From assembly GCA_017617035.1 (NCBI GenBank), contig JAFZWV010000023.1:1-63615 (forward strand): a stretch of DNA of 63,615 bases, written 5' to 3'. This document shows, piece after piece, positions 1-63,615 of this stretch; the stretch's first letter is position 1, and each line of letters begins with the position of its first letter. Under the pieces are notes generated by a model. It was not told the origin of the DNA. It ran no database searches and saw nothing but the letters and a program-made list of their open reading frames with translations. The translations under genes and the position numbers were made by a program. The stretch is from Bacteroidales bacterium. Its GTDB lineage: Bacteria > Bacteroidota > Bacteroidia > Bacteroidales > UBA932.

Positions 1-427
1 CAGACAGGATTCCACGTGTCCCGCCCTACTCAGGTGGCAAACTCGACCTAACCTCTTTACCCGTACGGGACTTTCACCCCCTGCGGTGCAACTTTCCAGA
101 TGCTTCCGGTTCATTGCTAGGTCTTAACGTCTGCTCCTACAACCCCGACGGCGCCGTAACGTCGCCGGTTTAGGCTCTTCCCATTTCGATCGCCACTACT
201 TTGGGAATCGATATTTCTTTCTCTTCCTCCGGGTACTAAGATGTTTCAGTTCCCCGGGTTCACCCCATCTTATGATGGTACTGGCCCTTCAAGCCAGTGG
301 GTTGCCCCATTCGGATATGTGCGGATCAATTCCTGTTTGCAGATCCCCGCACCTTTTCGCAGCTTACCACGTCCTTCATCGTCTCTGGAAGCCAAGGCAT
401 CCTCCGTTCGCTCTTCTTCTCTTTCTC
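1..427 (-). rRNA. rrl: 23S rRNA gene, 5' part, cut by the window edge
   Basis: The minus strand reads as the start of 23S rRNA, including the conserved GGATGCC, GACGATGAAGGACGTG and GGGGAATCCACCTGAG-type blocks. The mature 5' end is placed at about 427 by aligning the GGATGCC block with the E. coli 23S start, so it may be off by a few bases. The gene runs off the left edge. No 16S 3' end (anti-Shine-Dalgarno stretch), tRNA-Ile or tRNA-Ala lies upstream; instead a full promoter sits about 210 bases away. Confidence 0.95.
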
Positions 428-634
428 TTTCGTGAATCATACCAAGACTAACTGTTTTGCAACACCTAATCTCAATATTAACTCGATTTGCCTTGAAATT
501 GTAGTCCCATACTTTGCAACACGAAAAAACTCGTATTCTATAAATATTAGACTAATCTTTTCAATTATTTACCTCGTTATCTCTCTCAATAATTCAAAGA
601 ACTTTTCATCCCCCTCGCGTAATGCGCGAAAAGG
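428..634 (-). other. Leader of the solo 23S rRNA transcript
   Basis: This A/T-rich stretch separates the rRNA promoter from the 23S gene. It has no credible coding content. Just after the predicted transcription start it carries GAAAAGTTCTTTGAA, which also occurs (one base different) in the 16S leader at the right end of the window. That shared block is a likely boxA-like antitermination signal. An AATTATT/AATAATT pair could form a leader stem. The length is far too short to hide a 16S gene. Confidence 0.7.
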
Positions 635-638
635 ACTG

Positions 639-669
639 CAAAGATAGACACTTTTTTGATTATTACAAA
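639..669 (-). promoter_or_regulatory. rRNA promoter for the 23S gene
   Basis: On the minus strand TATCTTTG (639-646) is preceded by TTTG (666-669) with 19 bases between them, a match to the Bacteroidota -7/-33 promoter. The surrounding block, including CAGTCCTTTTCGCGCAT downstream, is nearly identical to the 16S promoter at 63420-63450, so it is an rRNA-class promoter. Confidence 0.85.
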
Positions 670-691
670 TTTTTTCGGGAAAATTTTTCGT

Positions 692-723: not shown

Positions 724-2616
724 ATGAAGAAAGAAGTTACTCCCTACTCCGTTGCTGTAGGCATCCTGATGACAGTGTTGTTCTCCGCTGCGGCGGCATA
801 TCTGGGCCTTAAAGTGGGCCAGGTTTTTGAGGCCGCAATCCCCATCGCGATCATCGCCGTGGGCCTTACCGGCGCCCTTAAGAAGAAGGATGGACTCGGA
901 CAGAACGTCATCATCCAGAGTATCGGTGCCTGTTCAGGCGTGATAGTAGCCGGAGCAATCTTCACCCTCCCCGCCATTTACATTCTCGGCCTGGAGGTTA
1001 ACTTCACCCAGATGTTTCTCAGTTCGCTGCTCGGCGGCGTACTCGGTATACTGTTCCTGATTCCCTTCCGCAAGTACTTCGTGAAGGAGATGGATGGGCA
1101 GTATCCGTTCCCGGAAGCGACGGCGACAACCAAGGTGCTGACAAGCACCGAAGGTGGCAGCGCGAAGACGCTGCTGGCCGCCGGCCTGATCGGCGGCCTT
1201 TACGACTTTGTCGTAAGCACCTTCGGCGCTTGGGCCGAAACCCTCAGCACTACAGTCATGCACTGGGGCCAGGTGGTCTCAGACAAGGCGAAGGTAGTCC
1301 TGAAACTCAACACTGGCGCAGCCATCCTTGGCCTTGGATATATAGTAGGCCTTAAGTACGCGTTTATCATCTGCTGCGGGTCGCTGCTCGTCTGGCTGAT
1401 CATCATCCCGGGCATGAACCTGCTGTTCGGCGGGCAGGTCGTTGACCTCATGGGCACGGGCATCGCCCAGACCATAGGCGAGATGTCGCCCGACCAGATC
1501 TTCAAGGAGTACGCGCGCCACATCGGCATCGGCGGCATCGCTACCGCCGGAATCATCGGCATCATCAAGAGCGCGGGCGTAATCAAAAGCGCCGTCGGGC
1601 TGGCGGTAGGAGAATTCGGGAAGAAGGGTGCGAAGGCCCAGGCGGTCGAAGAAAGCCAGCGGGACCTCCCGATGCGGCTGATAGTTTTCGGTATCGCGTT
1701 CGCCTTTTTGGCGACCTTCGCCTTCTTCGCGTTCGGCGGCGTGGTCGCTAACGTCTGGCAGGCCCTAATCGGGGTGCTGATCGTCGGCGTGATTGCGTTC
1801 CTGTTCACGACCGTCGCGGCCAATGCCATCGCCATCGTGGGTACCAACCCCGTCAGCGGCATGACTATTATGACGCTGATTATCACGGCGTTAGTGCTGG
1901 TCGCGGTCGGCCTTAAGGGTAACGCCGGAATGGCTGCGGCCATGGTCATAGGCGGCGTAGTTTGCACTGCCCTCTCGATGGCGGGCGGCTTCATCACGGA
2001 CCTCAAGATCGGCTACTGGACCGGGGTCACGCCCGCGAAACAGGAGACATGGAAGTTCGTGGGCACGCTCGTCGCGGCTGCTACCGTCGGCGGCGTGATG
2101 ATGATCCTCAACAAAACCTACGGTTTCACGGGTGAGGGCGCGCTGGTTGCCCCTCAGGCTAACGCCATGGCGGCGGTGATTCAGCCCATGATGAACGGCG
2201 GCAATGCGCCATGGCTGCTCTACGGCATCGGCGCGCTGATCGCGATTCTGCTGACCGTCTTCAAGGTGCCGGCGCTGGCGTTCTGTCTCGGCATGTTCAT
2301 CCCGCTCGACCTCAACCTCCCGCTGCTCGTCGGCGGCGCTATCGCCTGGTTCGTCAGCCACCGCTCCACCGACGAGGCGCTGAACAAGGCACGGCTCGAC
2401 AAGGGTACGCTGATCGCCTCCGGTTTCATTGCCGGCGGCGCGCTGATGGGCGTCGTCTCCGCAATCCTCCGCTTTGCGGGCGTAGACTGGTTCCTCACCG
2501 GCTGGAACACCGTCGCCGCCGGCCACGCCGCCTCCGGCGCTCAGGCCATCGCCATCATCCCGCTGCTGGGACTGATCTTCTACATGGCCTGGTCCTCTTT
2601 GCGCGCTAAAAAATAA
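724..2616 (+). CDS. OPT family oligopeptide transporter
   Basis: A 630-residue integral membrane protein of the OPT (oligopeptide transporter) family, which imports small peptides or peptide-like metal chelates using the proton gradient. Many hydrophobic spans fill the length, and the family motif NPVSGMT is near residue 373. The ATG at 724 is chosen because an in-frame ATG at 622 would place 34 unrelated residues across the rRNA promoter and the -7 element at 692. The gene stands alone and ends at the palindrome at 2624-2655. Bacterial OPT substrates vary, so the cargo cannot be read from sequence. Confidence 0.88.
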   Translation: MKKEVTPYSVAVGILMTVLFSAAAAYLGLKVGQVFEAAIPIAIIAVGLTGALKKKDGLGQNVIIQSIGACSGVIVAGAIFTLPAIYILGLEVNFTQMFLSSLLGGVLGILFLIPFRKYFVKEMDGQYPFPEATATTKVLTSTEGGSAKTLLAAGLIGGLYDFVVSTFGAWAETLSTTVMHWGQVVSDKAKVVLKLNTGAAILGLGYIVGLKYAFIICCGSLLVWLIIIPGMNLLFGGQVVDLMGTGIAQTIGEMSPDQIFKEYARHIGIGGIATAGIIGIIKSAGVIKSAVGLAVGEFGKKGAKAQAVEESQRDLPMRLIVFGIAFAFLATFAFFAFGGVVANVWQALIGVLIVGVIAFLFTTVAANAIAIVGTNPVSGMTIMTLIITALVLVAVGLKGNAGMAAAMVIGGVVCTALSMAGGFITDLKIGYWTGVTPAKQETWKFVGTLVAAATVGGVMMILNKTYGFTGEGALVAPQANAMAAVIQPMMNGGNAPWLLYGIGALIAILLTVFKVPALAFCLGMFIPLDLNLPLLVGGAIAWFVSHRSTDEALNKARLDKGTLIASGFIAGGALMGVVSAILRFAGVDWFLTGWNTVAAGHAASGAQAIAIIPLLGLIFYMAWSSLRAKK

Positions 2617-38292: not shown

Positions 38293-38323
38293 TTTGATAT
38301 TTGCCTAAACGCGCCTATCTTTG
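38293..38323 (+). promoter_or_regulatory. Promoter of the tRNA-Pro gene
   Basis: TTTG (38293-38296) and TATCTTTG (38316-38323) are separated by 19 bases, a textbook match to the phylum consensus. Confidence 0.75.
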
Positions 38324-38342
38324 CAACCCCTTACAGGGAATT

Positions 38343-38407
<65 letters not shown>

Positions 38408-38415
<8 letters not shown>

Positions 38416-38455
38416 CGAAATGAGCCGCCTGCGGGCGGCTTTTTTCGTCGGGGTG
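38408..38455 (+). terminator. tRNA-Pro terminator overlapping the tRNA 3' end
   Basis: AGCCGCC-TGC-GGGCGGCT followed by T6 (38423-38445) is a strong terminator. The stem extends outward, since CACCCCGACGAAA at the tRNA end (38408-38420) pairs with TTTCGTCGGGGTG (38443-38455). Confidence 0.85.
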
Positions 38456-63375: not shown

Positions 63376-63419
63376 AGTAAATTATGGGAGCTTGCCGACA
63401 TCAAAAAAACGTAAAAAAA

Positions 63420-63450
63420 TTTGTATTCATCAAAAAAGTGTCTATATTTG
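63420..63450 (+). promoter_or_regulatory. rRNA promoter for the 16S gene
   Basis: TTTG (63420-63423) and TATATTTG (63443-63450) with 19 bases between them, followed by CAGTCCTTTTCGCGCAT, matching the 23S promoter at 639-669 over more than 40 bases. Confidence 0.85.
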
Positions 63451-63454
63451 CAGT

Positions 63455-63594
63455 CCTTTTCGCGCATAGCGGAAAAGTTCATTGAAAATACTGAAAGATA
63501 AGTACAAGCAAGTACCGAGAAACAAGAAAAATCGAGAGCGTTAATTTCTTTAGAAATGAAGCGTCGGGATCAAGCTAGTAATATTAAAGAATAT
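63455..63594 (+). other. 16S rRNA leader
   Basis: A/T-rich leader with GAAAAGTTCATTGAA (boxA-like block shared with the 23S leader) and a small perfect hairpin ATTTC-TTTA-GAAAT near 63545, a possible processing stem. Confidence 0.7.
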
Positions 63595-63615
63595 ACAAAG
63601 AAGAGTTTGATCCTG
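63595..63615 (+). rRNA. rrs: 16S rRNA gene, first bases, cut by the window edge
   Basis: GAAGAGTTTGATCCTG is the universal 5' end of 16S rRNA; position 1 is placed at about 63595 by alignment with the E. coli 5' end. The rest is outside the window, so linkage to a 23S gene downstream cannot be seen. Confidence 0.93.

Follow-up and report, generated by a model that had tools for sequence, protein, structure and literature searches.

A 23S rRNA gene with its own promoter motif and no linked 16S rRNA gene in Candidatus Cryptobacteroides and related Bacteroidales

The stretch of DNA analysed in the current work (referred to as "the window") corresponds to the whole of contig C8, 63,615 bases in length, of a draft genome which consists of 33 contigs, amounts to 1.64 Mb and is 80% complete. 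Because the window represents an entire contig, the 23S and 16S rRNA genes located at its two extremities are both cut by contig ends. At the left end, the 5' part of a 23S rRNA gene occupies positions 1..427 on the minus strand (Rfam RF02541, LSU_rRNA_bacteria, model positions 1-440 aligned to window 427..1; 320 bits, E 1.8e-101). This gene is preceded by a leader of approximately 210 bases (428..637, minus strand), extending from the initial transcribed region to the 23S 5' end and delimited by its sequence and by homologous leaders of the genus, and then by a promoter motif (TTTG-N19-TATCTTTGC; 638..669, minus strand) which is directed toward the 23S gene. The first gene beyond this motif starts after 54 more bases and encodes an OPT transporter (724..2616, plus strand; Pfam PF03169, E 9e-106), being a conserved neighbour that is divergent from the 23S gene and from which the promoter motif faces away. 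At the right end, a second promoter motif (TTTG-N19-TATATTTGC; 63420..63451, plus strand) is followed by a 16S leader (63452..63601, plus strand; identified by its sequence and by homologous 16S leaders of the genus), which contains a boxA-like element, GTTCATTGAA, at 63477-63486, and by the first 14 bases of the 16S rRNA gene (AGAGTTTGATCCTG; 63602..63615, plus strand), recognized from the sequence. This 16S start points away from the 23S gene, so that the two units are divergent, and neither a 16S gene nor a spacer tRNA is encountered upstream of the 23S gene in the 63-kb window up to the 16S start at its far end. The sole RNA gene in the window besides the rRNA ends is a tRNA-Pro gene (38343-38416).

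A preliminary description of this DNA had proposed a 23S gene with its own promoter and without a linked 16S gene, a proposal which is supported by the Rfam match at 427..1, the promoter motif at 638-669 and the OPT gene upstream. The coordinates given at that time (23S 5' end at about 427, promoters at 639-669 and 63420-63450) were right within a base or two, and the stated absence of a 16S 3' end or a spacer tRNA between promoter and 23S gene holds for all of the window upstream of the 23S gene. The split arrangement is confirmed, and it is wider than had been supposed. Whole-genome searches with the Rfam families for 16S and 23S rRNA returned few or no matches even where DNA searches found genes, and DNA queries were therefore used for both genes in the comparisons reported below.

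The motif TTTG-N19-TAnnTTTGC, the boxes of which we take to be those of a "-33/-7 promoter", has exactly three matches in the window against 0.03 expected from shuffled sequences, two of these preceding the 23S and 16S genes. The only third match (TTTG-N19-TATCTTTGC; 38293..38324, plus strand) is positioned 18 nt before the tRNA-Pro gene, which consequently carries the same promoter class as the rRNA genes. When the left end of the window was compared by BLAST to its own genome, positions 622-675 matched 63414-63467 (54 nt at 94%, E 2.8e-17), bearing out the earlier remark that the promoter near the 23S gene is almost identical to that of the 16S gene; around the two promoters, 54 of 65 positions are alike, and an early transcribed segment (603..637, minus strand), defined by BLAST and by the promoter-region comparison, is partly common to the 16S leader. 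Across 13 genomes of the genus, the mean identity between 16S and 23S promoters was 0.711 within a genome versus 0.634 between genomes (permutation p 5e-5; where a genome had two candidate promoters one was chosen by score, this being the more distant one in two cases), and the own 23S promoter was the best or joint best match to the 16S promoter in 6 of the 13. This likeness resides in the spacer and in the initial transcribed part, no such effect being seen upstream of the -33 box in the same genomes (p 0.30), and is consistent with gene conversion or with a shared selection that may keep both units in step. The promoter of the stand-alone 23S unit is present as a sequence motif, and its use is predicted from what is generally held of Bacteroidota promoters. 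Directly after the promoter, a hairpin followed by a T-run, resembling an attenuator, was noticed by eye in L131 and L036 (G091), L031 (G069) and L120 (G063); in G091 the same hairpin was seen, also by eye, in both the 16S and the 23S leader.

Within the 23S leader, the segment 569..602 (minus strand) is composed of an element which is presumably a boxA, GTTCTTTGAA (593-602), and of a conserved block after it, TTGAGAGAGATAACGAGGTAA, both identified by sequence and by the leaders of the genus. It represents the junction between a promoter part and a spacer part, as is likewise the case at boxA in two complete genomes of a sister genus. A boxA-like pattern, defined permissively, was retrieved from 97 of 102 23S leaders of the genus as opposed to 4% of shuffled leaders, and in 92 of the 102 it lies no more than 80 bases from the promoter. 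Binding of antitermination factors to this element would be expected from general knowledge of rRNA antitermination. A processing stem formed between the lone 23S leader and the 23S-5S spacer found no support (z of -0.0, 0.6, 1.0 and -1.4).

The other half of the arrangement is found elsewhere in the same genome. Contig C6 (77,584 bases) has a 16S 3' end at its right extremity, followed by tRNA-Ile(GAT), tRNA-Ala(TGC) and two terminator-like hairpins (one obtained from scans and one by eye), and no 23S gene is present within 5.3 kb after tRNA-Ala. Considering contigs C6 and C8 together, the genome therefore possesses a 16S end without a 23S gene and a 23S start without a 16S gene, neither of the two genes being complete. 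Among the 30 best 16S 3' loci of the genus, 28 have a detectable 16S end and 29 contain the two tRNAs, and a 23S gene was absent from the 1.3-1.5 kb downstream of the tRNAs in all 30. A terminator-like hairpin was located within 150 nt past tRNA-Ala in 30 of 36 scorable entries of the genus (37 tried, one locus being counted twice) against 6.5% in shuffled sequences. The scan returned none for the remaining six of these entries and for three of five 5S ends; it may miss a terminator by extending the stem into the T-run. Two further 16S 3' ends, G054:C144 and G054:C88, were noted in which the matching sequence does not extend as far as tRNA-Ile and tRNA-Ala.

In order to describe the 23S side throughout the genus, 200 genomes were sampled from a larger group, 172 of which gave any match, and entries were taken among the matches listed: those reaching the 23S gene, a few ending in the leader, and the entries of the genus among the best loci of the family search described below. 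Over the stretches compared, some contigs of this set show full identity to records of Candidatus Cryptobacteroides choladohippi and faecavium. The resulting 117 entries comprise 5 without a scorable 23S gene, 1 with only 58 nt upstream, and 111 (from 107 genomes, two loci being counted twice) with at least 1,400 nt upstream. Neither a 16S gene nor a tRNA-Ile or tRNA-Ala gene was found in this upstream sequence in any of the 111 (for two of them, L035 and L041, the absence derives from a separate Rfam scan), while one entry has tRNA-Pro and tRNA-Glu upstream of the 23S gene. The TAnnTTTG box is present within 500 nt upstream of the 23S gene in all 111 (19% of shuffles), and the full two-box motif in 110 (6% of shuffles). 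An OPT gene lies within 3 kb upstream in 71 entries and was not found near the 23S gene in the other 40, which means that the locus moved or arose more than once. A collection of 115 loci from named records, selected by a common leader motif and including several instances of the same record, yielded 72 loci in which a 23S start is preceded by 1,400 bases or more of sequence; all of these carry TAnnTTTG, and 2 have a 16S end approximately 7.4-7.7 kb upstream of the 23S gene. The named relatives come from rumen and faecal sources, with which the host-associated lifestyle suggested earlier is consistent.

The distal part of the unit falls outside the window, the 23S gene being cut by the contig end, and was therefore viewed in other genomes. 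In G339, a complete 23S-5S pair with a terminator after the 5S gene is embedded in a 206-kb contig, no 16S gene being present in the 8.4 kb upstream of the lone 23S gene. A 5S gene follows the lone 23S gene in G339, G127, G096, G036, G209 and G265, with a terminator in two of five tested. Stretches of the 23S gene that do not match the reference were noted in L158 (10824-10981), L159 (9343-9474 and 9691-9903) and L428 (491-633), belonging to G250, G237 and G056, and may be intervening sequences or variable helices.

The genus belongs to a family which we take to be UBA932. A search of 24 genera of this family produced matches in 16, and its 30 best loci included 23 entries from seven other genera, 22 of which have enough upstream sequence; a 16S gene upstream of the 23S gene was found in none of these 22 and TAnnTTTG in all of them, while an OPT gene is located within 3 kb upstream in 11 of the 23 (g6, g14, g15, g18 and g21). 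As judged from sequence, the same make-up of units is thus shared by at least seven further genera. Complete genomes are represented by G202 (g4), in which both of two operons are linked, and by G209 and G265 (g11), each with two linked operons in addition to a lone 16S-Ile-Ala unit and a lone 23S-5S unit, the latter two being separated by about 110 kb and 30 kb, respectively. The lone 23S gene is 99.9% (G209) and 100% (G265) identical to the linked ones. One family thus offers a graded series, from all operons linked through a mixed state to no linked copy seen. Outside this family, 29 loci of other Bacteroidales families were retrieved, of which 26 were scorable and 23 have a 16S gene upstream, so that the earlier statement that Bacteroidota rRNA genes are normally linked holds as a comparison. 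The three unlinked loci belong to three other families (G352, G402 and G408; 8.6-10 kb upstream examined). A lone 23S gene with a promoter motif and a boxA-like element was observed at L460 (G352), L459 (G402) and L458 (G408).

The number of units was addressed by a search for 23S flanks in 131 genomes (the genome of the window and 130 of the genus that are at least 93% complete), 93 of which contain some 23S sequence. Among these 93, one 5' flank was found in 81, two in 2 and none in 10, while one 3' flank was found in 35, two in 2 and none in 56. Both flanks were present in 27 genomes, 26 with exactly one of each (including G504, where the 3' piece is doubtful at 69% identity) and one, G096, with two of each. 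The 16S flanks, among the matches listed, often number two or three per genome, and exceed the 23S flanks in 10 of the 20 genomes in which both 23S flanks were found and a 16S flank was listed, 23S 3' flanks being poorly detected. These counts, derived from drafts, suggest one 23S gene and several 16S genes in most species.

We conclude with high confidence that the 23S gene of the window belongs to a stand-alone unit, promoter-boxA-23S-5S, which is separate from a promoter-boxA-16S-Ile-Ala-terminator unit and is inherited across Candidatus Cryptobacteroides. A mis-join of the 23S 5' end at a repeat to an unrelated promoter region, during assembly or binning, would account for the fact that both rRNA genes terminate at contig ends, where mis-joins usually occur, in a draft genome of 80% completeness. 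It would not account for the same promoter-leader-23S order in 107 genomes of the genus, for the repeated proximity of an OPT gene (71 of 111 entries of the genus, 11 of 23 of other genera), or for the same kind of unit in the complete genomes G209 and G265. Furthermore, a 79-kb contig of another species (G080:C10) carries 16S and 23S genes at the same two ends, and its 20 reciprocal best hits with the window, running from a chromate transporter near the 16S gene to the OPT gene near the 23S gene, broadly keep their order, with several local swaps and strand changes. Given this broad collinearity of the inter-promoter segment in a second species, mis-assembly is considered very unlikely. A 16S gene joined upstream, which according to the preliminary description would have revealed a chimera, was encountered in none of the 107 genomes over at least 1.4 kb. 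It is hardly conceivable, too, that the motif at 638-669 serves something else, or that the 23S gene is a decaying copy: a divergent gene does begin at 724 and the promoter is putative, being known as a motif, yet this motif faces the 23S gene rather than OPT, is followed by a boxA-like element in 97 of 102 leaders, and is of the class that also precedes a 16S gene and a tRNA gene in the window. As regards decay, the 23S fragment attains 320 bits on the Rfam model, and in G209 and G265 the lone 23S gene is practically that of the linked operons (99.9% and 100% identity).

More weight, even if it is still improbable, is given to the reading that the lone 23S gene is a minor extra copy and that linked operons lost from the drafts supply most 23S rRNA, as in the mixed genus g11. 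In G209 and G265 one split pair indeed coexists with two linked operons, the Cryptobacteroides genomes examined are all drafts, from which rRNA repeats are often missing, and the 23S 3' flank was found in just 37 of 93 genomes. Against this, linked copies appear in none of the 111 entries of the genus and in none of the 30 loci on the 16S side, and in 26 of the 27 genomes where both 23S flanks were found, each flank occurs exactly once. In addition, in 28 genomes besides G096 the 5' flank match extends for 978 nt or more inside the 23S gene, which is unexpected if identical copies were present, and the assemblies of G339 and G127 run through the whole gene. The other complete operon envisaged earlier as a potential source of 23S rRNA was not seen in the genus, the genomes examined being drafts. 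A more far-reaching proposal, which we put forward tentatively and as falling just short of an even chance, is that Cryptobacteroides has fully abandoned the linked operon, with several 16S-tRNA units and, in most species, a single 23S-5S unit per genome, balanced via promoter strength or feedback and with recombination or selection keeping the promoters alike.

In functional terms, RNA polymerase with the Bacteroidota vegetative sigma factor would start transcription just past the TAnnTTTG box, near window position 630, and the boxA in the 23S leader would then allow an antitermination complex to assemble. With its own promoter and boxA, the 23S gene would no longer need the 16S transcript for either. 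The 16S and 23S units share a promoter type, and the likeness of their promoters within a genome would keep both rRNAs made in step; if several 16S genes indeed accompany one 23S gene, promoter strength or feedback would have to equalize the amounts of the two subunit RNAs.

The unit most likely originated when a promoter of the 16S type was joined, at boxA, to the spacer between 16S and 23S. Such a joining could result from recombination of the leader boxA with the spacer boxA, or from DNA having been inserted into the spacer. Over the stretch that begins with the boxA-like element (GTTCTTTGAAG, AGTTCATTGACA) and ends at the 23S gene, the lone leader is 93% (G209) and 100% (G265) identical to the linked spacers, while just before boxA no match between lone and linked copies is found in either genome, the lone copy having an rRNA promoter there and the linked copy the 16S end and spacer. 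The linked spacers themselves (L144 and L145, of G209 and G265) contain no complete tRNAs and display a T-arm-like remnant, GGTTCAAGTCCC. At boxA, the 16S leader and the spacer share 18 identical nt in G265 (linked operon) and 12 nt at 92% in G209; the 18-nt identity is a possible recombination site. Deletion of the 16S gene from a complete operon would be expected to leave what is found in G352, where the lone 23S leader consists of promoter, a 28-nt tRNA-Ala remnant, boxA and 23S: these 28 bases agree at every position with the 3' end of the spacer tRNA-Ala of a relative (200 shuffles gave a longest match of 15), so that just the 3' part of this tRNA is kept after the rRNA promoter. Alternatively, genes may have been inserted between 16S and boxA, opening the operon within its spacer, an option which we hold to be plausible, if somewhat short of probable. 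Two named records, L375 and L387, carry on a single contig a 16S 3' end, a terminator-like hairpin (by eye), five co-directional genes, a promoter, boxA and the 23S gene, with a 16S-23S gap of approximately 7.4-7.7 kb, a spacing which is easier to reconcile with an insertion into the spacer than with the loss of a 16S gene; L356 shares this 16S end and gene block with them, its sequence ending within the 23S leader. By eye, the five-gene block seems to consist of two ABC transporter genes together with genes for an aldo-keto reductase, an alcohol dehydrogenase and a sugar transporter. Insertion is also favoured by G265, G209, G089, G190, G195, G021, G032 and G011, where a single contig or chromosome carries the 3' side of the 16S gene (its end or the tRNAs that follow) in the same orientation as the 23S side (the gene or its leader), at a distance of about 30-110 kb, whereas the units are divergent in the window and in G080:C10. 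The choice between insertion and deletion is regarded as about evenly balanced.

Should the operon be split in Cryptobacteroides as proposed, surveys based on long 16S-ITS-23S amplicons would miss or undercount the genus, as is reported for other unlinked taxa in PMC8178347. Methods which assume linkage would consequently overlook a large uncultured group of the gut and rumen (Cryptobacteroides and its relatives); PMC12918008 reports Cryptobacteroides as the most abundant genus among cattle gut epithelium genomes (7.4%). PMC7825169 finds Bacteroidetes underrepresented in such amplicons, primer specificity being one proposed cause. The graded series, with its junctions inside one family, makes the origin of a split operon testable and offers a setting for asking how bacteria balance 16S and 23S rRNA without co-transcription.

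Unlinked rRNA genes as such are already known. They have been defined by a distance of more than 1,500 bp between 16S and 23S (Brewer et al., ISME J 2020, as quoted in PMC8178347), relative to which no 16S gene lies upstream of the 23S gene in the window or in the 111 of 111 entries of the genus with at least 1,400 nt, and no 23S gene lies within 5.3 kb on C6 or within 1.3-1.5 kb at 30 of 30 loci of the genus. Deinococcus-Thermus and Planctomycetes are given as phyla with highly prevalent unlinked rRNA genes (PMC11261877; for Planctomycetes also PMC7825169), Lachnospiraceae of horses are reported to contain them, and the human gut is quoted as having none (PMC8178347), a phenomenon to which an abundant lineage of the animal gut would now be added. 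Split units in symbionts are treated in PMC7761764, with references to Wolbachia, Buchnera and Helicobacter. The passages retrieved by our literature search, in which Brewer et al. 2020 figures through quotations, mention no split rRNA genes for Cryptobacteroides, UBA932 or other Bacteroidota; as far as checked, the family-wide case in Bacteroidales is new.

What sets the present case apart from unlinked rRNA genes in general is its occurrence throughout a gut and rumen family of Bacteroidales. In Thermus, the 16S gene is unlinked from the 23S gene or 23S-5S unit. The same likeness extends to Wolbachia, Buchnera and Helicobacter, and the arrangement reported here would differ from all four in that tRNA-Ile and tRNA-Ala stay with the 16S gene and in that the 23S leader has the look of a spacer fused at boxA to a 16S promoter. 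The coexistence of linked and unlinked copies in the genomes of G209 and G265 corresponds to the "mixed type" of Cellulosilyticum (PMC8178347), Cellulosilyticum being a member of the Lachnospiraceae while G209 and G265 belong to the Bacteroidota. The conventional Bacteroidales operon, 16S-Ile-Ala-23S-5S (e.g. that of G442), has the same promoter class, the tRNAs after the 16S gene and boxA before the 23S gene, and is one operon where two units are found here.
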